Shown here in pieces: positions 4,563-24,510 of a stretch of 64,000 bases of DNA; position 1 is the first letter of the stretch, and every line of letters starts with the position of its first letter. The notes below the pieces were generated by a model. It saw only the letters and a program-made list of their open reading frames with translations. It had not been told where the DNA came from and ran no database searches. This stretch comes from an uncultured Rhodospirillales bacterium. GTDB lineage: Bacteria > Pseudomonadota > Alphaproteobacteria > ATCC43930 > CGMCC-115725. Position numbers and translations under genes: made by a program. Location: NCBI GenBank assembly GCA_903822185.1, contig CAIJOA010000032.1:62001-126000 (forward strand), written 5' to 3'.

Positions 4563-5489
4563 ATGACGGCCCCGACCAATCCATACCCCGCCCTAACCCG
4601 CGCGGTTGATCCGACTGTCCTGCACAGCATTCGGCAGGCCAGCCAAGCGACTTCGACCGATTTCGGGCTGTTGATGGCGCAAGCCTCGCGTGAGAGCGGA
4701 TTCCGGGCCGACGCCAAATCATCCAGCAGCAGCGCCGCCGGACTGTTCCAGTTCGTCGATAGCACCTGGCTCGATATGGTGCGCCGCTTCGGCGCCAAAT
4801 ACGGCGCCGGTCAGCTCGCCCAGCAAATCAGCCAGGACGCCAACGGCAAGCCTGTGGTGAGCGATTCCGCGACCCGCAAGGAAATCCTCGCTCTCCGCCA
4901 CGACCCCTCGCTGTCGGCTTCGCTGGCGGGCGAATACACCAAGCTCAACCAGACCGAAGTCGAACGCAGCGTCGGCCATAAGCTTTCGCGCGGCGATCTC
5001 TACATGGCGCATTTTCTGGGTGCCGGCGGCGCGTCATCGTTCCTCAAGGCGCTCGACACCAAGGGCAACACCGCCGCCGCGGATATCCTGCCGGACGCCG
5101 CTGCCGCCAATCAGAGCATTTTTTACGATTCAAACGGCCGGGCACGTACGGTCGCCGAAATCTATCATACGTTGTCGGACAAGATCGAAAAGGACGCGGC
5201 CGCGTTCGGCGGTGCAGCCCCGACCGATCCTCAACCCAGCACAATGACCACCGCACAGCGCGTCGATGCCGTCGCCTCGGCGCTTGGCCTCGGCAATTCG
5301 GATGCACCGTTTGGAACGCCCACCGTCGGGCGGGCGGGAGATATGTCCGGGATTAAGCTGTCGGAACCGGTGCTCGCCATGCTCAATGTGGTTGCGATGG
5401 CGGCGCTGAAGATGAGCCAGACCGACCCGGCAACCCCGAAACAGACGCCGCCAACGACCTCGACTCCGCGCGAGCGTCACTCCATTTAG
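4563..5489 (+). CDS. lytic transglycosylase-like (SLT fold) protein
   Basis: A lysozyme-like domain spans about residues 20-190. ASRESGF (about residue 40) carries the expected catalytic glutamate, followed by SAAGLFQFVDSTWLDM, the SLT-type core. The fold cleaves the glycan strand of peptidoglycan to 1,6-anhydro products. No export signal is visible at the N-terminus, so it may leave by another route or the annotated start may miss a leader. The C-terminal 100 residues are low-complexity and Pro/Thr-rich. It is followed by a hairpin (5515-5536) and the tRNA gene. Confidence 0.85.
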   Translation: MTAPTNPYPALTRAVDPTVLHSIRQASQATSTDFGLLMAQASRESGFRADAKSSSSSAAGLFQFVDSTWLDMVRRFGAKYGAGQLAQQISQDANGKPVVSDSATRKEILALRHDPSLSASLAGEYTKLNQTEVERSVGHKLSRGDLYMAHFLGAGGASSFLKALDTKGNTAAADILPDAAAANQSIFYDSNGRARTVAEIYHTLSDKIEKDAAAFGGAAPTDPQPSTMTTAQRVDAVASALGLGNSDAPFGTPTVGRAGDMSGIKLSEPVLAMLNVVAMAALKMSQTDPATPKQTPPTTSTPRERHSI

Positions 5490-5566
5490 TCCCTGATTTT
5501 GAAGCAAGAATGCCCTTGGCGGATTGACCCGCCAGGGCCCGCATCCTATTGTCCGCGGCCACGCGC

Positions 5567-5641
5567 GGGCTCGTAGCTCAGCGGTAGAGCTTCCGACTTT
5601 TAATCGGGAGGTCGCGGGTTCGAATCCCGCCGAGCCCACCA
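5567..5641 (+). tRNA. tRNA-Lys (anticodon TTT)
   Basis: A full cloverleaf can be drawn by eye. Acceptor arms are 5567-5573 and 5631-5637, D-arm GCTC/GAGC, anticodon stem 5592-5596 with 5604-5608, and loop CTTTTAA giving anticodon TTT at 5599-5601. The T-arm is GCGGG/CCCGC with TTCGAAT. The discriminator is A5638 and CCA is encoded at 5639-5641. There is no intron. This would read AAA and AAG lysine codons. Confidence 0.96.
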
Positions 5642-5680
5642 CGCGCGAGCCTTCTAGACGCCCGAATTACGAGGCCAGCC

Positions 5681-5956
5681 ATGAAGCGCAGTGCCGTTTT
5701 CCTCGCCGCAATCACCCTCCTCGCCGGCGCGTCCTCGATGACAACGCCAGCCCAGGCCGCCTGTGAGCCCGGCACAAAACTCGACAGCACGACCGTAGAT
5801 TCGACACGAATCCTGGTCACAAAGGCCGGGTACAAGAACCCGCAGCATTTGCGCAAAGGCTGCGACAGTGCGTGGCACGGCACAGCCACAAAGAATGGTG
5901 CTGCTGTTTCGATCGCCGTCACCACAGACGGCAAAGTTGTTGAAGAAGGCGAATGA
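5681..5956 (+). CDS. small secreted protein, 91 aa, unknown function
   Basis: A Sec signal peptide (about residues 1-26, ending TPAQA|A) precedes a mature domain of about 65 residues with two cysteines, likely a disulfide. GAGG sits about 8 nt upstream of the ATG. Its stop overlaps the next start (ATGA, 5953-5956), so the two are probably translated together. No family is recognised. Confidence 0.72.
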   Translation: MKRSAVFLAAITLLAGASSMTTPAQAACEPGTKLDSTTVDSTRILVTKAGYKNPQHLRKGCDSAWHGTATKNGAAVSIAVTTDGKVVEEGE

Positions 5957-6330
5957 ACATGAAGAAAAATTTCCTCGTTGCCGGCGTACTCCTCGCTCTC
6001 GCTGCCTGCGCCAGCCTCGACAAGCCGCGCGACTACATCGTCTTCTTCCAGACTGACCAAGCTGACCTGACGCCCGAAGCCAATCAGGTGATCGCGGACG
6101 TCGCCAAACAGACCCACGATCTGTCGCCGTCGAAAGTAGTGGTCTCTGGTCGCGCCGACGGTAGCACCGCGCATGATGCAACGCTCGCCGACCAGCGCGC
6201 ACAAATGGTCATGAAGGCACTGAGCGACAAAGGCGTCCCCGCTGCCAAGATATCGAAATTGGCCGACGCACCGCCGGCGGATCGGACTGGTGTGGCCGCC
6301 CATCAGGTGGTGATCACCCTCCTGCCCTAA
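5953..6330 (+). CDS. small OmpA-like lipoprotein
   Basis: A lipoprotein signal with lipobox LAAC (about residue 19) is followed directly by an OmpA C-terminal-like domain: FFQTDQADLTPEA matches the beta-alpha start of the fold. A later Asp/Arg pair (GRADGS and ADQRAQ) occupies the positions that bind meso-diaminopimelate in Pal. At 125 aa it is a minimal Pal-type anchor between the outer membrane and peptidoglycan. It is coupled by a 4-bp overlap to the upstream secreted protein. A second in-frame ATG at 5959 is equally possible. Peptidoglycan binding is inferred. Confidence 0.78.
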   Translation: MNMKKNFLVAGVLLALAACASLDKPRDYIVFFQTDQADLTPEANQVIADVAKQTHDLSPSKVVVSGRADGSTAHDATLADQRAQMVMKALSDKGVPAAKISKLADAPPADRTGVAAHQVVITLLP

Positions 6331-6348
6331 CGCACCGCCTCGCACCTT

Positions 6349-6915
6349 ATGTCTGAGATCAGACCGGTTCTCGCGCCGCGCCCTGGCACTGACGGGCTGG
6401 TCGATCTCTTCGTTGCCTTTCTGCAGATCAGCCTCTCGGGCTTCGGTGGCGCCATCAATTGGGCGCATCGCGCTTTAGTCGAAAAGCGCCAATGGATGAC
6501 CGACGAAGACTTCACCGAGATGCTGAGTCTTTGTCAGTTTCTTCCCGGACCCAACATCGTCAATTTCGCCGTGTGTCTCGGGCAACGCCAACAAGGTGTG
6601 CTCGGCTCGATAGCGGCGCTGTCAGGCTCCGTCGTCGTTCCCTTCGTCATCTTTCTTTTCCTGGCGCTGTTCTATTCGCATCTCGGCAAGATCGATTCGA
6701 TTCACGGTGCGCTGACGGGCGTTTCGGCGGCGGCGGCGGGCTTCATGATCACCGTCGGCATTCGTCTGGCGCGCCCTCACCGTAAACGAGCCCTCTCGAT
6801 ATTGTTCGGCACCGCGGCCTTCATCGCCATGGGCATCATCCGCTTTCCTCTGGTTTATGTTCTTCTCGTACTGGCACCGCCGAGTATCATCATCGCGTGG
6901 GTCATGAAGAAATGA
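6349..6915 (+). CDS. chrA: chromate transporter, N-terminal-type half
   Basis: Short-chain CHR family protein of 188 aa with about five membrane segments. It carries the family signatures GFGGAINWAHR and LCQFLPGPNIVN. Family members export chromate or related oxyanions. A normal long ChrA is two such halves in one chain; here the second half is a separate overlapping gene, so a heterodimer is expected. The substrate is not proven by sequence, since many short CHR proteins have no tested chromate activity. Confidence 0.88.
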   Translation: MSEIRPVLAPRPGTDGLVDLFVAFLQISLSGFGGAINWAHRALVEKRQWMTDEDFTEMLSLCQFLPGPNIVNFAVCLGQRQQGVLGSIAALSGSVVVPFVIFLFLALFYSHLGKIDSIHGALTGVSAAAAGFMITVGIRLARPHRKRALSILFGTAAFIAMGIIRFPLVYVLLVLAPPSIIIAWVMKK

Positions 6916-7442
6916 TCGAAGAAGGCGCACTCGGAAAGATGACGGCGCAGTTCGCGTTGTTGACGCTGATCTCGTTTGGCGGCGTCAATGTCGTGCTGCC
7001 AGACGCGCATCGCTTCTTGGTCGATGTGCATCATTGGATTACCGATCAGGAATTCGCCGATTACTTCGCCATCGCACAAGCGGCGCCTGGCCCAAATTTC
7101 ATGATGTTCGCGCTGATCGGCTGGAAGATCGACGGCGTGATCGGCGCTATCGCCGCTTCGCTCGCGATCATTCTTCCTGCCGGCGGGCTGGCTTTCATCG
7201 GCGGCGGGCTGTGGCATTATTTCCGCGAAGCCCCTTGGCGTCGCGCCGTTCAGCTTGGCCTTGCGCCGATAACGATCGGTCTTGTCTTTTCATCCGGCTA
7301 TGTTCTGTCGAGCGCTGCTGACCATGACTGGCTGACTTTCGGTATCACCGCCATTACGGCCGTCGTCACGCTCTATAGTAAGATCAATCCGTTATGGGTG
7401 TTTGCCGGTGCCGCCCTCATCGGCACTTTCGCCTTATCTTGA
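6912..7442 (+). CDS. chrA: chromate transporter, C-terminal-type half
   Basis: The partner half, 176 aa, starts at the ATG at 6912 that overlaps the previous stop (ATGA). LISFGGVNVVLPDAHRF and AIAQAAPGPNFMMF mirror the FGG and PGPN motifs of the first half, as expected for the duplicated domain in inverted membrane topology. The 4-bp overlap supports one-to-one synthesis. A ribosome site for the next gene (GAAGGA) immediately follows its stop. Confidence 0.88.
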   Translation: MIEEGALGKMTAQFALLTLISFGGVNVVLPDAHRFLVDVHHWITDQEFADYFAIAQAAPGPNFMMFALIGWKIDGVIGAIAASLAIILPAGGLAFIGGGLWHYFREAPWRRAVQLGLAPITIGLVFSSGYVLSSAADHDWLTFGITAITAVVTLYSKINPLWVFAGAALIGTFALS

Positions 7443-7452
7443 AGGATCTGTA

Positions 7453-7932
7453 ATGCAGCTTCTTTTGCCGCAAGCCGAAACCGCCGCGACCCTGTTGCGG
7501 GCTAAAAAATACAAAATTGCAATCGCCGAATCATCGACCGGCGGTTTGATATCGAGCGCACTGCTGGCAATGCCCGGTGCGTCCGATTATTTCCTCGGCG
7601 GTTGCGTCGTATATACCGCACAGTCACGCGAGATTTTTCTCGGCCTGACGAGCGCCGATCTGACCGGCATGAGGCCATCCACCGAAGCCTATGCCCTCTT
7701 CGCGGCTCGCCGTGTCCGCGAACGTTTCGGTTCAGATTGGGGCCTGGCCGAAACCGGAGCAGCAGGACCGACCGGCAATCGTTATGGCGACGCAGCGGGC
7801 CATAGCTGCATTGCCCTCGTTGGCCCCGTTGAACGCGCCATCACCATCGAGACCGGCGAAACGGATCGCGCCGCCAACATGCTCGCGTTTTCCGCCGGCG
7901 CATTACGTCTTATTGCCGAGGTTCTGGGTTAA
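7453..7932 (+). CDS. pncC: CinA C-terminal-type nicotinamide-nucleotide amidohydrolase
   Basis: A stand-alone PncC domain, 159 aa, that deamidates nicotinamide mononucleotide to nicotinic acid mononucleotide in the NAD salvage cycle. The signatures IAIAESSTGGLISSAL near the N-terminus (with the active Ser) and GAAGPTGNRYG are visible. It lacks the N-terminal CinA nucleotide-sugar-like domain. The start at 7453 has GAAGGA 7 nt upstream. The chain YFLGGCVVYTAQSR is a good family match, but the later part is slightly divergent, so the activity is inferred. Confidence 0.85.
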   Translation: MQLLLPQAETAATLLRAKKYKIAIAESSTGGLISSALLAMPGASDYFLGGCVVYTAQSREIFLGLTSADLTGMRPSTEAYALFAARRVRERFGSDWGLAETGAAGPTGNRYGDAAGHSCIALVGPVERAITIETGETDRAANMLAFSAGALRLIAEVLG

Positions 7933-8444
7933 CCCGCCACACCGCGTAACAAATCGCGCGCACCCGGCGTATCCATCGAACGGATCGTTCGGCTTTTTAT
8001 CCGCCATCCTTCCGGTGTCCGAACCAACTCCCACCGATTGGCAGATAGACGGCAGACACGAAATCCTTTCGAGGTGCCGTGCGCCGATAGCTCAAAGGGC
8101 TTGCCGTCGGGGTCCGCCGCCAGAATTTGCAGGTAGGACGTCGCAACGGCGGTATCTCCGTCGATCACGATATGCGGCGGTCCCGCGAAATGGCAGATGC
8201 CCTGGCGCTGAGCTTCCTTGAAGCCGGGCGCGTTCAGAATTTCGAGCATGCTTTCGAAGCCGGTCGGCGGCACGCCCTCGCGCCCCATATCGATCATGCC
8301 GTCTTTTGCCCAGAATGAAGCCGCGTAATCACGCGACGCGCTGTCCGCTCCCGGCGGATGACCGGCAATAAGATTGATGATTTCGAGGTGATCCTCGATG
8401 CGCAGGATGCGATCTTCCAAGCTGCGGCTTTTGCTGTCCGTCAT
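7929..8444 (-). CDS. SnoaL/NTF2-like protein
   Basis: A 171-residue protein with the alpha plus beta cone-fold pattern: helices LEDRILRIEDHLEIINLIAGH, then YAASFWAKDGMIDM and a string of beta strands ending in a WRIKSRTIRS segment. Members are ring hydroxylases, isomerases or ligand-binding proteins, and the substrate cannot be told. A strong GAGGAGGGG ribosome site precedes the ATG. It is convergent with pncC and their stops overlap by 4 bp. Confidence 0.75.
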   Translation of the reverse strand: MTDSKSRSLEDRILRIEDHLEIINLIAGHPPGADSASRDYAASFWAKDGMIDMGREGVPPTGFESMLEILNAPGFKEAQRQGICHFAGPPHIVIDGDTAVATSYLQILAADPDGKPFELSAHGTSKGFRVCRLSANRWELVRTPEGWRIKSRTIRSMDTPGARDLLRGVAG

Positions 8445-8555
8445 GTCCCCTCCTCGCGCCGAACCTTTCTTGGCTCTTGGCAGACGCCGATCTTATACCG
8501 ATCTCGAAACCGTTGCCGACTTCCGTCATGATGCGCCTCGAAGCGCGGAGCAGAC

Positions 8556-9860
8556 ATGGATCAACCCTCCCCGCGGCGGAACCTGACAGACCGCACGCGG
8601 CTCGATATCAAGGAAGTTCTCGAGGGACGCCGTCGCGGCCTACGCACCCTGCTGCCTTTTTTCGGACCGGCCGTTGTCACCTCGGTCGCCTATATCGATC
8701 CGGGCAACTTCGCCACCAACATCCAGGCCGGAGCGCGCTACGGCTATGGCCTGCTGTGGGTCGTCGTGATGGCCAATGTGGTTGCAATGCTGTTCCAGGC
8801 GATGTCCGCCAAGATCGGCATCGTGACGGGACGAAACCTTGCGGAATTGTGCCGCGATCATCTCCCGCGGCCTCTCGTCATCGCGATGTGGATCGTCAGC
8901 GAGATCGCGGCCATGGCGACCGATCTCGCCGAGTTCCTCGGCGGTGCACTCGGCCTGGCGCTTCTGTTCAGCATCCCCTTGCTGCCGGGCATGGTGATCA
9001 CCGGCATCGTCACCTATGGCATTCTCATTCTTGAGCGGCTGGGATTCCGGCCGATCGAAATTGTCATCGGCAGCTTGGTCACGGTGATTGCGCTCTGCTA
9101 TCTCGCCGAGATGTTTCTCTCGCCGTTCGATTGGCAGCAGGCGTTGCAGGCCTTGGTTCCGACGCTGCCCGACGGCGCGGCATTGCTTCTCGCGGTCGGG
9201 ATTGTCGGCGCGACGGTGATGCCGCACGCGGTCTATCTTCATTCAGGTCTGACCCAGGCACGCGCGGCCGCGCATGACGATCACGAGCGTCGCCTTCTTG
9301 TTCGTTTCTCGCATCGCGAAGTGTTCATCGCCTTGGCCATCGCCGGGCTCATCAACATGGCGATGGTCATCATGGCCTCGAACGCCTTCCACGCTGGATA
9401 CAGCGACGTTGCCGAGATCGAGACGGCCTATCACACGCTCGTCCCGTTGCTGGGTATTGCCGCCGCCGGGGTCTTTTTGACGTCACTGATCGCATCCGGA
9501 ATATCCAGTTCGATCGTCGGCACGATGGCTGGTCAGATGATCATGCAGGGCTTTGTCGGATTTCGTATTCCGATCTGGCTGCGCCGCCTCGTCACGATGA
9601 TCCCGGCATTCGTCGTCGCCGCGATCGGCGTGAACACAACAACCGCTTTGATCATGAGTCAGGTGCTGCTCAGCCTCACGCTGCCCGTGCCCATGATCGC
9701 GTTGGTCTTTTTCAGCAGCCGGCGGGACATCATGGGCGATTTCGTCTCTTCTCGTCTTACCACGATGATGGCGAGCCTCGCCGCCTTGATGGTCCTTGGG
9801 CTCAATCTCGTTCTGCTTTTACAGACTTTCGGGATCGAGATTCCGGGTTTGCCGGTCTGA
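8556..9860 (+). CDS. mntH: Nramp-family divalent metal transporter
   Basis: A proton-coupled manganese or iron importer of the inner membrane, 434 aa with about 11 membrane helices. The metal site is visible: SVAYIDPGNFATNIQAG in helix 1 (Asp and Asn ligands) and TVMPHAVYLHSGL in helix 6 (Met and His). GCGGAG precedes the ATG. No manganese- or iron-regulator operator could be identified with confidence in the 110 bp upstream. The final helix is complete and a short hairpin follows. Confidence 0.94.
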   Translation: MDQPSPRRNLTDRTRLDIKEVLEGRRRGLRTLLPFFGPAVVTSVAYIDPGNFATNIQAGARYGYGLLWVVVMANVVAMLFQAMSAKIGIVTGRNLAELCRDHLPRPLVIAMWIVSEIAAMATDLAEFLGGALGLALLFSIPLLPGMVITGIVTYGILILERLGFRPIEIVIGSLVTVIALCYLAEMFLSPFDWQQALQALVPTLPDGAALLLAVGIVGATVMPHAVYLHSGLTQARAAAHDDHERRLLVRFSHREVFIALAIAGLINMAMVIMASNAFHAGYSDVAEIETAYHTLVPLLGIAAAGVFLTSLIASGISSSIVGTMAGQMIMQGFVGFRIPIWLRRLVTMIPAFVVAAIGVNTTTALIMSQVLLSLTLPVPMIALVFFSSRRDIMGDFVSSRLTTMMASLAALMVLGLNLVLLLQTFGIEIPGLPV

Positions 9861-18472: not shown

Positions 18473-21229
18473 CTACTCCTCTTCGCCGCCGGCGACATCG
18501 GTTCCGGCATCTTCGCCGGGATCGGATTCGCCCGTGTCGGGCAGCCGCGCCACCGAAACCACCCGCTCGCCATCATCCACTTTGAGCACCGTCACACCAC
18601 CGCTACGACGGCGGCGGATGCTGATGCCTTCAACGGGGACACGGATCAACGTGCCGCCATTCGTGACCAGCATGATCTGATCCTCTTTGGCCACCGGGAA
18701 GACGGCGATCGTTGCGCCCTGCCCGCGGCTTGGATCGTTGTTCTCACGCCCCTGCCCGCCACGACCGGTAATGCCATAATCATAAGCCGAACTTCGCTTG
18801 CCGTAGCCCTTTTCGGTCAGGACAAGGACGAATTCTTCGCGCGCGGCAAGATCAGCGAATTGTTCTTCGCTGATCGTCGCCGGTACGCCCACCTCGGCAT
18901 CGCCGTCATCAACCTCGACCTCTTCAGTCGGGGCTCGGCGACGCTCGGCCGACAGCCGCAGATAGGCGTAACGCTGCTCCGTCGGCACGTCTTCGTGCCG
19001 TAGGATCGACATCGAGATAACCGCATCACCTTCGATCAGGCGGATACCGCGCACCCCCACCGAGCTGCGGCCGGTAAAGACACGCACCTCATCGGCGGCA
19101 AAGCGGATCGACCGTCCGTTCCCCGTGGCCAACAAGACATCGTCGGAAGCGCTGCAGACCGCCACGGCAATCAGGCGATCATTGGCATCTTCACCTTCGA
19201 ATTTCATCGCGATCTTGCCGGTGACGAAGACGCTGGTGAAATCCGCCAGGGAGTTGCGGCGCACATTGCCTTTGGCCGTGGCGAAGACGGCATATTTGTC
19301 CGTCCAGTTCGCTTCGTCTTCCGGCAAAGGCATCACGGTTGAAATGCTTTCGCTCGCGCCGAGATTGGGTAGCAAGTTGACCATCGCCTTGCCGCGCGAT
19401 TGCGGTGTGCCGACCGGCAAGCGATAGACCTTGAGCTTATAGACGCGTCCCGACGAGGTGAAGAACAGCACCGGGGCATGGGTCGAAGCGACGAAGACTT
19501 GGCTGAGGAAATCCTCGTCGCGCATCGCCATGCCGGCGCGGCCACGACCGCCGCGGCGCTGTGCACGATAGGTCGAAAGCGGCACGCGCTTGATGTAGCC
19601 GCTATGGCTCACCGTCACGACCATATCCTCGCGCTGGATCAGCGCTTCGATATCGGTCTCGAATTCGATGTCTTGTATCTCGGTGCGGCGCGGCGTCGCG
19701 AATTGCTCTTTCACCGCGATGAGTTCTTCGCGGATGACTTCCATCAGCCGTTCGCGCGACCCGAGAATTTCGAGATAGCCTTTGATCTCGATGACGATAC
19801 CGTCGAGTTCTTCTGCGATCTTGCCACGTTCCAACGCCGTCAAACGCTGCAGGCGCAGATCGAGGATGGCTTTGGCTTGTTCTTCACTGAGGTGATAGCT
19901 GCCGTCGGCGGTGGCGCCGCCGCGTCCTTCTTCCTCGATCAGCGCGATCAAGGGTAAAACGTCCACAGCCGGCCAGGCACGCGCCAGCAATTCCGCGCGC
20001 GCCGTCGCCGGATCGGGCGACCTGCGGATAAGCGCGATCATCTCGTCGATATTCGCGACGGCGACAGCAAGGCCCAGCAACGTATGAGCGCGCGAGCGAG
20101 CTTGGCGCAGCAGATAAGCCGTGCGCCGCGTGACGACTTCTTCGCGGAAATTGACGAACGCGACGATGATGTCGCGCAGCCCCATCAACAAAGGCCGGCC
20201 GCCATCGAGCGCCAGCATATTGACGCCGAAGCTGGTCTGCAGTGGCGTGTAGCGATAAAGCTGATTCAGCACGACATCGGCAACGGCATCACGCTTCAAT
20301 TCGACAACGACGCGAACACCGTGACGATCGCTTTCGTCGCGCAGGTCGGAAATGCCCTCGATGGTCTTTTCCTGAACCAGTTCGGCAATACGCTCGACCA
20401 TGCGCGCCTTGTTCACCTGATACGGAATCTCGGTGATGACGATCGCTTCGCGGTCCTTACGGATCTCTTCGATCGCCACGCGGCCGCGCATGACGACAGA
20501 GCCGCGGCCCGTCGCATAGGCGGAATGGATACCGGCACGGCCGAGGATGATACCGCCGGTCGGGAAATCCGGTCCCGGCACATGCTCCATCAGGCCTTCG
20601 GTCGTGATCTGGCGATTATTGATGTAGGCAATGCAGGCATCGATGACTTCGGTCAGATTGTGCGACGGAATATTTGTCGCCATGCCGACGGCGATGCCAG
20701 AGCCACCATTGACGAGAATATTCGGATAGCGCGCCGGCAGAACCTTCGGCTCTTCGCGGCGTCCGTCAAAGTTCGGCTGGAAATCGACGGTGTCCTTGTC
20801 GATATCGTCCAGCAGCGAGTCGGCAGCGCGGGAAAGGCGCGATTCCGTGTAACGCATAGCCGCCGGCGGATCGCCGTCCATCGAGCCGAAATTGCCCTGC
20901 CCGTCGATCAGCGGCAGGCGCATGGAGAAATCCTGCGCCATGCGGACCATTGCCTCGTAGATCGGCGCGTCGCCATGGGGATGGAAGTTACCCATGACCT
21001 CACCGACGCTGGTCGCCGACTTGCGGTAAGCGCGGTTCCAGTCGTAACCGGCCTGCTTCATACCGAAGAGAATGCGACGGTGGACGGGCTTTAAACCGTC
21101 ACGAACGTCAGGCAGCGCACGCGACACGATTACGCTCATCGCGTAGTCGAGATACGAGCGCTTCATCTCCTCTTCGATCGCGACGGGCGTAATATCGAGA
21201 GGCGGCGGAGGCGCGGGAGTATCAGCCAA
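18473..21229 (-). CDS. gyrA: DNA gyrase subunit A
   Basis: Type II topoisomerase breakage subunit, 918 aa. The catalytic tyrosine is in AAMRYTE and the winged-helix segment reads [19 protein letters not shown]. The quinolone pocket thus has Ala at the position of E. coli Ser83 and Glu at Asp87. Six C-terminal beta-pinwheel blades wrap DNA, with [11 protein letters not shown] matching the GyrA box. The tail is acidic ([14 protein letters not shown]). Translation appears to start at a TTG (21229), supported by the MADT start shared by relatives; the first internal ATG would remove 17 residues. Confidence 0.97.
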
Positions 21230-21549: not shown

Positions 21550-21912
21550 TTATTGGTTCGCGAGCAGCGGGATGTCTTTGGCGGCCTTTGACGCAGGAAT
21601 CGATTTCAGCCACGCGTAGATGTTGGCTACGTCGCTGTCCGGAAGGATTTTGGCTTCATAGGGCGCCATCGCGTTTTGCGGGACACGTATTTGCTGCACG
21701 AAGGCCGAATAGGGCAAAGCCGTCCCCGATATCTGGGGCCCCGTTGTTGCGCCGCCCTGCCCGACCGTGCCGTGACACTGCCAGCAACCGACCGAAAGGA
21801 AAGTCGTCTGCCCTGCCTTGGCATCGCCTGCCGGTGCGGTGTCCTGCGCCAAAGCCGGGAACGCCATGCCAAGAACGAACGCGGCTGTCGCGAAAAAATG
21901 CGTAACTTTCAT
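21550..21912 (-). CDS. small periplasmic c-type cytochrome
   Basis: A signal peptide (about residues 1-22, ending PALAQ) is followed by one heme site, CWQCH, near residue 44 and a distal Met region (NAMAPYEAKILPDSD) with the class I cytochrome c pattern ending in YAWLKSIP. It is 120 aa from the ATG at 21912; longer in-frame starts overlap the upstream gene. It follows the exported ThDP enzyme by 13 bp, so it is likely its electron acceptor or partner; that link is inferred. Confidence 0.88.
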   Translation of the reverse strand: MKVTHFFATAAFVLGMAFPALAQDTAPAGDAKAGQTTFLSVGCWQCHGTVGQGGATTGPQISGTALPYSAFVQQIRVPQNAMAPYEAKILPDSDVANIYAWLKSIPASKAAKDIPLLANQ

Positions 21913-21925
21913 GATCCGATTTTCC

Positions 21926-23881
21926 TCACCGACCCTGCGAAACAACATCAAGCAGGGCGGGTTCGCCCTTCTTCACGATGGCGATGGCACGTTGCAGTGC
22001 CGGCCCCAATGCCGCCGGATCCGTGATCGGGCCTTCGGCATAAACCCCCATGCTCTGGGCGAGTTTGGCGAAGTCGATATTCGGATTGGCAATCTCGGTG
22101 CCGATGTTTGCCGTATGCGGATCGCGCAGATGGCGGTTGGCCATGTGCTGAAGATGCATCACCTCTTGGAAGTAATAGCGGTTGTTATGCATCACCATGA
22201 GGATCGGAATCTTGTGCTTGGCAGCCGTCCAAAGCGCGCTGGGCGAAACCATCAGATCGCCATCGCCCATGATCGCAACGGACAGTCGTCCATACTTGCG
22301 ATTGGCGAGCGCCGAACCGACCGAACCACCGCCGCCGTAACCGACGCCGTAAGCGCCGGAATCGCCGAGCGCGTGATAGTACTTGTCCATCTTCCAGAGA
22401 CGGCGCGACCAATAGCTCGCCGGCTGCGTGCCGCTGACGAGCGACCAGTCTTCACCTTTGATCTTGTCCCAGACCTCCATGGTGAGACGCGCGGTGCTGA
22501 TCGGGTTCGCATCCCAACCCACCGCCGCTTCGTTCTTGGACTGCTCGTAGGACGCCTTACGGGCATCCGCCATCTTCTTGCCGCGGCTTTCGAAAGCCGA
22601 TTTCTTATCGTCGTTGGCAAGCTTGCGCACCGCTTCGACCAGGAACGGCATCGTTGCCGCACCGTCACCGCTGATCTCGAGCGTGACGTCGCTGAAGCGC
22701 TGGAAATTCTGATAGTTCGAGCGAATTGTCTGACTTGCCGAACTCAGCGACACTGTCTTGGCTGTCGGCTTCAGCAAGGGACGCGAGGTCCGATGTAGCT
22801 GATCGCGATAGCCGTGCGTCACGCCCCAGAAATCCGTCATGTCGATGCCGACGACGAGATCTGCCTGCGCCAACAGCGCGCCGCGACGCTCGCTTTGGTT
22901 CAACGGATGCATGTTCGGGAAATTCATGCGGCCGCCGATATCGACCACCGGGCATTGCAACGCTTCGGCCAGCGCGATCAAATTCTTCATCACGCCGTTC
23001 GGACCGGGGACGCCGCGATCGGCGAAGATCACCGGATTTTCGGCGGACACCAGCATCTGCGCCAGTTCGGCCACGGCAGCCGAATCACCGACTGCCGTCG
23101 CAAAACGGGGCAGCTTCGGGATGGTCAGCTTCGCGTCCTCGGGAATCGGATCTTCTTGGAGCGAGCCGTCGGCAACGAGCAGCACAGGCCCCATCGGCGG
23201 GGTCATGGCGATCTGATAGCTGCGGACCGTCGATTTGGCGAAATGCTGCAACGAGCCCGGCGAATCATCCCACTTCGTATAATCGCGGGTGATGACCGGA
23301 CCGTCCTGCACGGTGTGATCGACCTCGACGCCAGGGCGTCGCATCGTCGCATCGGCAATGTTGGCCGTCATCATACAGATCGGCACGCGATCGGCGTAGG
23401 CGTTGTAGATCGCCATCGAGGCATGCTGCAGACCGACGGTCGCATGAACCAGATTGAGCATCGGCTTGCCTTCAACCTTGGCATAGCCATGCGACATCGC
23501 GACCGAGATTTCCTCGTGCAGACAGGTCAGCCATTCCGGCGCGGTGTTCTTGCCGTAATTGATGAAGGACTCTTGCAGACCCCGGAAGCTCGAGCCCGGC
23601 ATGGCCGCGATATATTCGATGCCGAGTGTCTTGAAGGCATCGACCATGAAGTCGGAGCCGCTGCGGGCTTCGATCAGATGTTCGGCGCCTGCCGGAAGCT
23701 TTTCGGATTCAGCGGCCTTCTGCCCGGCGGTAACACCTTGCGGCAATTTTTCCGGCGCGGCCGGCGCCTGAGCCCGTGCCGCCGACAGCGGCGCCGCGAT
23801 CGTCGTCGCTGCACCGGCTAAAGCGGCACCTTTGAGAAAACCACGGCGACCGACTTCGGCCGCATCTTTGCGCTTCGACAT
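21926..23881 (-). CDS. Tat-exported thiamine-diphosphate-dependent enzyme (acetolactate synthase/decarboxylase-like)
   Basis: The N-terminus carries a twin-arginine signal: EVGRRGFLKGAALAGAA, then a hydrophobic stretch ending AARAQ. The body of about 600 aa has the three domains of the ALS/decarboxylase family: a PYR domain with the catalytic Glu in CLHEEISVAMSHGYA, a central domain (ENPVIFADRGVPGPNGV), and a PP domain with the ThDP motif IMGDGDLMVSPSAL...VMHNNRYY. The GPG loop of acetolactate synthase is replaced, so the reaction is not acetolactate formation for certain. A folded, cofactor-loaded enzyme in the periplasm would need Tat. GGGAGGGAACG precedes the ATG. The substrate is unknown. 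Confidence 0.88.
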   Translation of the reverse strand: MSKRKDAAEVGRRGFLKGAALAGAATTIAAPLSAARAQAPAAPEKLPQGVTAGQKAAESEKLPAGAEHLIEARSGSDFMVDAFKTLGIEYIAAMPGSSFRGLQESFINYGKNTAPEWLTCLHEEISVAMSHGYAKVEGKPMLNLVHATVGLQHASMAIYNAYADRVPICMMTANIADATMRRPGVEVDHTVQDGPVITRDYTKWDDSPGSLQHFAKSTVRSYQIAMTPPMGPVLLVADGSLQEDPIPEDAKLTIPKLPRFATAVGDSAAVAELAQMLVSAENPVIFADRGVPGPNGVMKNLIALAEALQCPVVDIGGRMNFPNMHPLNQSERRGALLAQADLVVGIDMTDFWGVTHGYRDQLHRTSRPLLKPTAKTVSLSSASQTIRSNYQNFQRFSDVTLEISGDGAATMPFLVEAVRKLANDDKKSAFESRGKKMADARKASYEQSKNEAAVGWDANPISTARLTMEVWDKIKGEDWSLVSGTQPASYWSRRLWKMDKYYHALGDSGAYGVGYGGGGSVGSALANRKYGRLSVAIMGDGDLMVSPSALWTAAKHKIPILMVMHNNRYYFQEVMHLQHMANRHLRDPHTANIGTEIANPNIDFAKLAQSMGVYAEGPITDPAALGPALQRAIAIVKKGEPALLDVVSQGR

Positions 23882-23977: not shown

Positions 23978-24005
23978 AAAAGACCCGGCAATGGCCGGGT
24001 CTTTT
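23978..24005. terminator. intrinsic terminator of ssb
   Basis: AAAAGACCCGGC-AATG-GCCGGGTCTTTT: 12 pairs with a 4-nt loop, lying 8 bp beyond the ssb stop. Read on the minus strand it ends in TCTTTTTATTT. It also works in the other orientation. Confidence 0.88.
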
Positions 24006-24012
24006 GTACGCG

Positions 24013-24510
24013 TCAGAACGGAATTTCGTCGTCGAGATCGTGGGAGACCGGAGCCCGGCTGCTGCTGCTGCCGCCACCGCCGCCCCCACCGCTACGCGGC
24101 GTGCTGGCGCGCGGCGCCGGCGATTCATCCGGCATATCGGAAAAACCTTCCCCGCCGCTGCGACCATCGAGCATCGTCAACTGACCGTTGAACCGGCCAA
24201 GCACGACCTCGGTCGTGTAGCGTTCTTGGTTGTCCTTGTCGGTCCATTTGCGGGTTTGTAGCGTGCCTTCGATATAAAGCTTCGCGCCTTTTTTCACGTA
24301 GCGTTCGATGACTTCGACCAGCCGATCGTTGAACACCGCAACGCGGTGCCATTCGGTCTTTTCTTTGCGTTCGCCGCTGGCCTTGTCGCGCCAATTTTCC
24401 GAAGTTGCGATCGACAGATTGCAGATACGCATGCCGTCTTGAGTCGAGCGGATTTCGGGGTCCCGTCCGACATTGCCGATGAGAATGACTTTGTTGACGC
24501 TGCCAGCCAT
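24013..24510 (-). CDS. ssb: single-stranded DNA-binding protein
   Basis: An OB-fold of about 110 residues (SVNKVILIGNVGRDPEIR... KLYIEGTLQTRKWTD) is followed by a Gly/Ser-rich linker and the acidic tip DDEIPF that binds partner proteins. 165 aa, tetramer expected. It is transcribed away from uvrA across a gap holding a LexA box, the common SOS-linked arrangement. Confidence 0.97.
   Translation of the reverse strand: MAGSVNKVILIGNVGRDPEIRSTQDGMRICNLSIATSENWRDKASGERKEKTEWHRVAVFNDRLVEVIERYVKKGAKLYIEGTLQTRKWTDKDNQERYTTEVVLGRFNGQLTMLDGRSGGEGFSDMPDESPAPRASTPRSGGGGGGGSSSSRAPVSHDLDDEIPF

Follow-up and report, generated by a model that had tools for sequence, protein, structure and literature searches.

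A predicted Tat-exported thiamine diphosphate enzyme with its own c-type cytochrome: a candidate periplasmic respiratory module in an uncultured Rhodospirillales bacterium

The 64,000-nucleotide stretch of DNA analysed here (the window), from an uncultured Rhodospirillales bacterium whose genome comprises 4.27 Mb in 50 contigs, encodes on its minus strand a 651-residue thiamine diphosphate (ThDP)-dependent enzyme with a predicted signal for twin-arginine translocation (Tat) (21926..23881; ATG at 23881, stop codon ending at 21926, N-terminus MSKRKDAAEVGRRGFLKGAALAGAATTIAAPLSAARAQA). A gene for a secreted mono-haem, class I-like cytochrome c of 120 residues (21550..21912, minus strand) lies downstream across a gap of 13 nucleotides (21913-21925). 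An earlier note on this DNA had described a ThDP enzyme with a twin-arginine signal followed at 13 bp by a cytochrome, and we confirm that arrangement. On balance, we favor the view that the two genes form a respiratory module in which a periplasmic ThDP dehydrogenase would have its own cytochrome c as acceptor for the electrons of a ThDP-bound carbanion. The signal, the cytochrome partner, the intact catalytic residues, and the co-inheritance of the two genes are all evident at the level of sequence, and export of the enzyme, with the cytochrome as its partner, is well supported on the same basis.

To follow the pair across relatives, we drew on the window's own genome, its family (39 genomes), a class sample (386), a phylum sample (397), the phylum of an Acidiferrales metagenome-assembled genome (MAG; 347 genomes, taken as Acidobacteriota), another family of the same class (96 genomes; two sample names gave identical matches and evidently denote one group), the genome_contigs collection, and plasmids. 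Several of these surveys scored the best 3 candidates per genome, and the class survey for a second exported lineage, described below, scored the best 4. Ten matches covering fewer than 450 aligned residues of the query were dropped, most of them genes truncated at the end of a locus and one of them L080, and rows sharing identical last 250 residues were counted once; 113 rows were left after removal of duplicates and short matches. For the linkage comparison a row had to exceed 30% identity and to have 400 nucleotides or more downstream, which excluded L153 (179 nucleotides) and L186 (1 nucleotide). We found that a same-strand CxxCH protein is encoded next in 63 of the 68 rows bearing the twin arginine (RR) and in none of the 34 rows without it, one of which (L052, second segment) is a fragment (Fisher 4e-22, a value that overstates independence because the rows are related). 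The search that the earlier note had proposed, for homologues with both a Tat signal and an adjacent cytochrome c, therefore returns both features in 63 of 68 exported rows, with a median gap of 13 nucleotides.

When 111 rows are placed in a tree, all 70 exported family rows group as a single clade (SH-aLRT 97) with a signal-less clade alongside (96), and the cytochrome is absent from scattered tips. Enzyme and cytochrome distances correlate across 63 pairs (Mantel r = 0.57, with 0 of 2000 permutations as high), a correlation that also reflects shared descent in part. The pairing of enzyme and cytochrome is not chance. The earlier note had held that homologues lacking signal and cytochrome in nearly all genomes would speak against its proposal of Tat export with a paired cytochrome; such homologues are absent at identities of at least 43% and occur only in the distinct signal-less sister clade, and its interpretation is supported in this part, with the window enzyme inside the exported clade and the cytochrome its near-exclusive neighbour. 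At L080 / L191, one Tat-ThDP copy is broken by an in-frame TAG, and its downstream cytochrome gene is open.

The window cytochrome has a signal peptide by reading (MKVTHFFATAAFVLGMAFPALA; 21847..21912), a single haem-binding CWQCH (21772..21786), and matches over cut-off to Pfam Cytochrome_CBB3 and Cytochrom_C. Among 32 aligned cytochromes G34, C43, C46, H47, R76, and M82 are invariant, M82 (21667..21669) being the putative axial Met ligand, and with its CxxCH, distal Met, and helical fold the protein has the features of a class I cytochrome c. One haem motif is present in 62 of the 63 linked cytochromes and two in the remaining one, from Caballeronia. The structural model (predicted local distance difference test, pLDDT, 79.5) has c-type cytochromes as its listed structural matches, with a modest Z of up to 7.3. 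The top Foldseek match is the cytochrome of p-cresol methylhydroxylase, but it is weak (E 0.048), and the likeness is only suggestive because the model gave no Foldseek match under 0.001 and no VIA-align Z of 8 or more.

We asked how far this cytochrome occurs away from the enzyme. A profile of the cytochrome (A4), searched in the 96 genomes of the other family with at most 47 candidates scored per genome, gave at least 57 matches, 39 of them above 100 bits. Directly downstream of a ThDP gene lie 37 of these 39; the 38th (L223) comes after a ThDP gene of which the contig start leaves only the 3′ end, and the contig of the 39th (L224) opens with the match itself. A further 18 matches are weaker (50-80 bits) and lie away from such ThDP genes; the two of them that we inspected (L225 and L226) are longer di-haem proteins. 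Among 72,556 plasmids the window cytochrome was matched in only 2 records (E up to 1e-8), from Novosphingobium sp. KACC 22771 and Caballeronia zhejiangensis, the same two that carry the Tat enzyme. A further 11 plasmid records hold a relative of the enzyme, and the four examined (L068, L046, L047, and L048) lack both signal and cytochrome. The cytochrome subfamily thus belongs almost exclusively to the exported enzyme. The Caballeronia record labels the pair merely 'thiamine pyrophosphate-binding protein' and 'c-type cytochrome'.

The predicted signal peptide of the enzyme covers approximately residues 1-38 (VGRRGFLKGAALAG...ARAQA; 23768..23881), with the twin arginine at R12-R13 (23843..23848). 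The RR signal is present in all 70 distinct family rows at identities of at least 43% and in none of those below 42%; the pattern x-RR-x-F-L is found in 48 of 71 RR-bearing rows, and the AxA cleavage-site test that we applied to the N-termini is a permissive one. We consider it very improbable that the RR motif is non-functional, the enzyme cytosolic, and the adjacent secreted cytochrome a coincidence. Such an account could point to the Pfam TAT_signal family (PF10518), which scores the window enzyme at 19.8 bits, below its cut-off of 22.7, and to the hydropathy after the RR (median 1.49), whose range overlaps that of N-termini without RR (median 0.65, maximum 1.84); it would have to contend, however, with a motif that is universal in the exported rows, absent from the sister clade, and largely of the x-RR-x-F-L form, and with a partner cytochrome that is secreted too and hardly occurs apart from the enzyme. 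The mature enzyme would be periplasmic.

The enzyme is a member of the ThDP-dependent decarboxylase/acetolactate synthase superfamily, with PYR, middle, and PP domains (Pfam TPP_enzyme N, M, and C, all over cut-off). Its catalytic residues are intact: E123, H189, K203, D540, G541, N566, and N567 do not vary in any of 103 family rows. Two motifs singled out in the earlier note, HEEISVAM and GDGDLMV...NNRYY, are both present as it described. The glutamate of ThDP enzymes that activates the ThDP aminopyrimidine corresponds to E123 (23513..23515), which is Glu also in 5/5 rows of the second exported lineage, and the ThDP/Mg binding motif GDG...NN spans residues 539-567 (22181..22267). The AlphaFold2 model is of good quality (pLDDT 88.7, predicted template modelling score 0.87), with the signal at low confidence. 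Its nearest solved fold is benzoylformate decarboxylase (4ju9: Z 37.6, root-mean-square deviation 2.6, 514 residues aligned, 23% identity), the Pseudomonas putida entries of that enzyme giving Z 37.2-37.6 over 512-516 aligned residues; HKA synthase (Z 35.5), benzaldehyde lyase (35.0), and acetohydroxyacid synthase (34.7) come next. Foldseek places acetolactate synthase, glyoxylate carboligase, and benzoylformate decarboxylase level with each other, and a profile search likewise has benzoylformate decarboxylase as the nearest solved relative.

Named NCBIfam families describe the enzyme poorly. The best of the matches listed (25 of 51) is a ThDP-requiring protein, NF006203 / PRK08327, at 218.6 bits against a cut-off of 456, and the benzoylformate decarboxylase model (147 of 493 bits), two pyruvate oxidase / PoxB models (76.7 of 742 and 69 of 792), and sulfoacetaldehyde acetyltransferase (Xsc; 102 of 676) all fall short of theirs; the phosphonopyruvate decarboxylase profile is not among the 25 of 51 matches listed. 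The pyruvate oxidase and sulfoacetaldehyde families, with which the earlier note had suggested a comparison, are thus neither of them nearest, that place going, among enzymes of known structure, to benzoylformate decarboxylase.

In the pocket, H146 aligns opposite a conserved histidine of benzoylformate decarboxylase, which we take to be H70, and is kept in 67/70 exported and 33/33 other rows. Residue 573 (22163..22165) splits the groups cleanly: it is Glu in 70/70 exported rows and 5/5 rows of the second exported lineage, and Asp in 33/33 rows of the signal-less sister clade. This position presumably corresponds to L461 of benzoylformate decarboxylase and, in the pyruvate decarboxylase of Zymomonas, to the catalytic Glu473; H189 presumably falls near the pyruvate decarboxylase histidines. 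Because of where E573 and H189 lie under these assumed correspondences, the pocket appears to be polar and suited to decarboxylation chemistry on a small polar substrate.

The host genome contains another exported ThDP enzyme with a cytochrome. At locus L016, an enzyme 25% identical to that of the window begins with a signal of Tat-like type (SRRQLMRGLSAVGVSG...AMAQA), and the gene 2 nucleotides downstream encodes a di-haem cytochrome. We found this second lineage in 4/39 genomes of the window's family (its own included), all four with signal and di-haem cytochrome, and in 2/288 class-sample genomes. The two exported groups come out as distinct clades (100/98 and 100/99) when 47 rows are placed in a tree, and a single exported clade is rejected by the approximately unbiased (AU) test (log-likelihood 50.8 lower, p-AU 7.9e-9, a p value weakened because the groups had already appeared apart in the 111-row tree). 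The most economical account is that export was gained twice, a single ancestral gain followed by losses being an alternative that is formally still admissible. The two cytochromes are both c-type and differ in make-up. The sole NCBIfam match of the second-lineage cytochrome at 1e-10 is SorB, which is the cytochrome subunit of sulfite dehydrogenase, below cut-off (64 of 93 bits); we rejected the idea that it is unrelated to the first type on its score of 16.7 bits against a profile of 63 first-type cytochromes.

We next consider what the cytochrome might serve other than the enzyme itself. Neighbourhoods were compared in 54 larger loci (53 with a ThDP gene) by simple gene calls and clustering; from 211 neighbours (120-700 residues, up to three genes away) we chose 150, and 142 of these went through a Pfam scan. 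The commonest families are Glyoxalase/VOC (6/142), Pyr_redox_2 (5), Amidohydro_2 (5), and MFS_1 (4). Three Acidobacteriota loci (L023-L025) contain an extra di-haem cytochrome. In the two longer ones, L024 (7268-9735) and L025 (6665-9162), it comes after the pair and is succeeded by a pyrroloquinoline quinone (PQQ)-type dehydrogenase, recognised by Pfam in L024 (PF01011, 1e-87) and by reading in L025. These loci, the likeness to benzoylformate decarboxylase, itself non-oxidative, in both fold and sequence, and a pocket Glu/His pattern that presumably resembles that of pyruvate decarboxylase lend some weight to a different reading, which we regard as unlikely but worth serious attention: the enzyme would be a non-redox periplasmic decarboxylase or C–C lyase/ligase that shares only an operon with the cytochrome, the latter serving another dehydrogenase that oxidises the aldehyde product. 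The loci read share no dehydrogenase gene, however, so that the cytochrome has no other constant neighbour, which weakens a decarboxylation-only alternative; and the second ThDP lineage is likewise paired with a cytochrome.

The same PQQ-type genes bear on the possibility, rather improbable in our judgment, that the substrate is an aldehyde and not a 2-oxo acid. The aldehyde would then add to ThDP, the cytochrome would oxidise the Breslow intermediate, and hydrolysis would release the acid; in some Acidobacteriota a PQQ alcohol dehydrogenase would catalyse the preceding step. In keeping with this are the benzaldehyde lyase and formolase folds among the structural matches and the dehydrogenases downstream in L024 and L025, but besides these two loci PQQ-like genes were found in only 3 gene-called loci (aldehyde dehydrogenase in 2), and no aldehyde-specific residue was identified.

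Other candidate partners and pathway markers were set aside. FMN_dh matches 3/142 neighbours, and an alpha-hydroxy-acid oxidase from Salipiger used as query matched two loci of one genus, too few for either to mark a pathway. NHL-type beta-propellers are encoded near Tat-ThDP genes in L166 (9987-11030, minus), L180 (10088-11257, plus), L162 (7010-8014, plus), and L184 (1680-2774, minus); two of the four adjoin an enzyme that has no cytochrome, but we rejected them as substitute partners for such enzymes since the other two loci do have one. In Salipiger abyssi (L047, 4469-10264), a signal-less relative lies between two aldehyde dehydrogenases, followed by an alpha-hydroxy-acid oxidase, and this mandelate-pathway-like set may hint at the ancestral chemistry.

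For the ThDP dehydrogenase that we favor, the following sequence of events can be proposed. The enzyme would fold and bind ThDP/Mg in the cytoplasm and then be exported by Tat; Tat carries folded, cofactor-loaded proteins, and ThDP could therefore be loaded before export. In the periplasm, its substrate would be a 2-oxo acid that is small and polar, or else an aldehyde, and would be turned into a ThDP carbanion/enamine, which the dedicated cytochrome c would oxidise directly in one-electron steps, in place of simple decarboxylation. Because cytochrome c is a one-electron acceptor, two successive transfers would give acyl-ThDP, whose hydrolysis would yield the acid, and the reduced cytochrome would pass its electrons on to the respiratory chain. 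ThDP intermediates can donate electrons singly, as in pyruvate:ferredoxin oxidoreductase. We would expect no flavin, given a fold like that of benzoylformate decarboxylase, which is not known to need one.

Several observations weigh against this proposal. We know of no precedent for ThDP-to-haem transfer without a flavin or iron–sulfur cluster, and the strict pocket Glu and His are also compatible with plain decarboxylation. Adjacent cytochromes are missing from 5 of the 68 exported enzymes with room for one (L086, L095, L138, L139, and L079) and from a Tat-signalled member of the second lineage (L210/L214, 38%). Phylogenetically, the linkage amounts to one gain plus the second lineage, not to 63 events. 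No pathway gene is shared among the 142 Pfam-scanned neighbours, and no single substrate is indicated. Finally, the likeness of the cytochrome to a dehydrogenase partner is not specific because subunits of respiratory complexes match equally or better: cytochrome bcc-complex subunits head the VIA-align matches (Z 7.3), with p-cresol methylhydroxylase tied (6.8), and bc1-complex cytochrome c subunits are the best solved relatives by sequence. At L214, the ThDP enzyme (5018-6919, plus) is followed by a molybdopterin oxidoreductase with a Tat signal (7204-8850, plus; family by reading).

Both gene families are already known. Among the papers listed by searches of open-access full text, no title or opening of an abstract concerns an exported ThDP enzyme, with or without a cytochrome of its own, which is weak evidence as most subscription journals lie outside that collection. 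To our knowledge, ThDP oxidoreductases are cytosolic and have flavin, iron–sulfur, lipoate, or NAD as first electron acceptor. We put forward only tentatively that these Tat-exported enzymes, working without flavin, are the first ThDP redox system to be placed outside the cytoplasm, that they arose from cytosolic decarboxylase-type enzymes at least twice and were amplified to up to ten copies in one alphaproteobacterial genome, and that they transfer electrons directly from the ThDP-bound carbanion to dedicated c-type cytochromes. If so, it would be a new type of primary dehydrogenase in bacterial respiration, a periplasmic ThDP enzyme with haem c as acceptor, and electrons of an organic acid or aldehyde would enter respiration by a previously unnoticed route. 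It would also imply that ThDP enzymes can be exported in holo form by Tat, offer a flavin-free system in which to study ThDP radical chemistry, and give a role to genes annotated just as ThDP-binding protein or c-type cytochrome.

The exported type is rare overall. Leaving signal-less matches aside, we found it in 2/386 genomes of the class sample and 5/39 of the window's family; in the phylum sample (397 genomes, threshold 1e-120) it occurs in the window's own genome alone. It is present in 13/347 genomes of the Acidobacteriota sample and 13/96 of the other family, where one genus has 2-10 places in each of seven genomes, one place being signal-less. Up to ten Tat-ThDP genes occur in one genome of this alphaproteobacterial genus. 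In L189, L192, L181, and L183, three or four such genes stand in tandem and most have their cytochromes; L189 (G1126:C132:1-20000) has four tandem pairs and L192 three.

Within the window, the two genes are flanked by ssb (24013-24510) and gyrA (18473-21229), both named by reading their translations. A hairpin with a T tract at approximately 23978-24005 (seen by eye; a consensus scan did not list the hairpin) separates ssb from the enzyme gene, and the pair is therefore probably its own transcription unit. By reading, the probable Shine–Dalgarno sequence of the cytochrome gene overlaps the enzyme stop codon. The same arrangement recurs in a Rhodospirillales MAG (L022), where the pair, at 76% identity, is flanked by uvrA-like and gyrA-like genes.

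Among characterized systems, benzoylformate decarboxylase (P. putida, 1BFD, and relatives) shares with the window enzyme its fold, the active-site Glu, and the His at the H70 position, but not the pocket with invariant H189 and E573; it is not known to have a Tat signal or a cytochrome partner, or to oxidise. The same fold is found in 4d5g, labelled CDH among the Foldseek matches, which we take to be cyclohexane-1,2-dione hydrolase, an NAD-linked, cytosolic enzyme that couples ThDP chemistry to oxidation. Pyruvate oxidase / PoxB (ThDP and FAD), of the same superfamily, oxidises the ThDP intermediate and delivers the electrons to O2 or quinone, but it is flavin-dependent and works on the cytosolic side. 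In p-cresol methylhydroxylase and the sulfite dehydrogenase SorAB an exported catalytic subunit has its own small cytochrome c, the same two-part architecture as in the window pair, although they rely on flavin or molybdenum for catalysis where the window enzyme has ThDP, and the cytochrome likenesses are weak. Thiocyanate dehydrogenase is arranged like the window pair as well, as a catalytic subunit with its own small cytochrome: a single-haem cytochrome co-purified from the periplasm is reported to take its electrons in vitro (PMC9456337).

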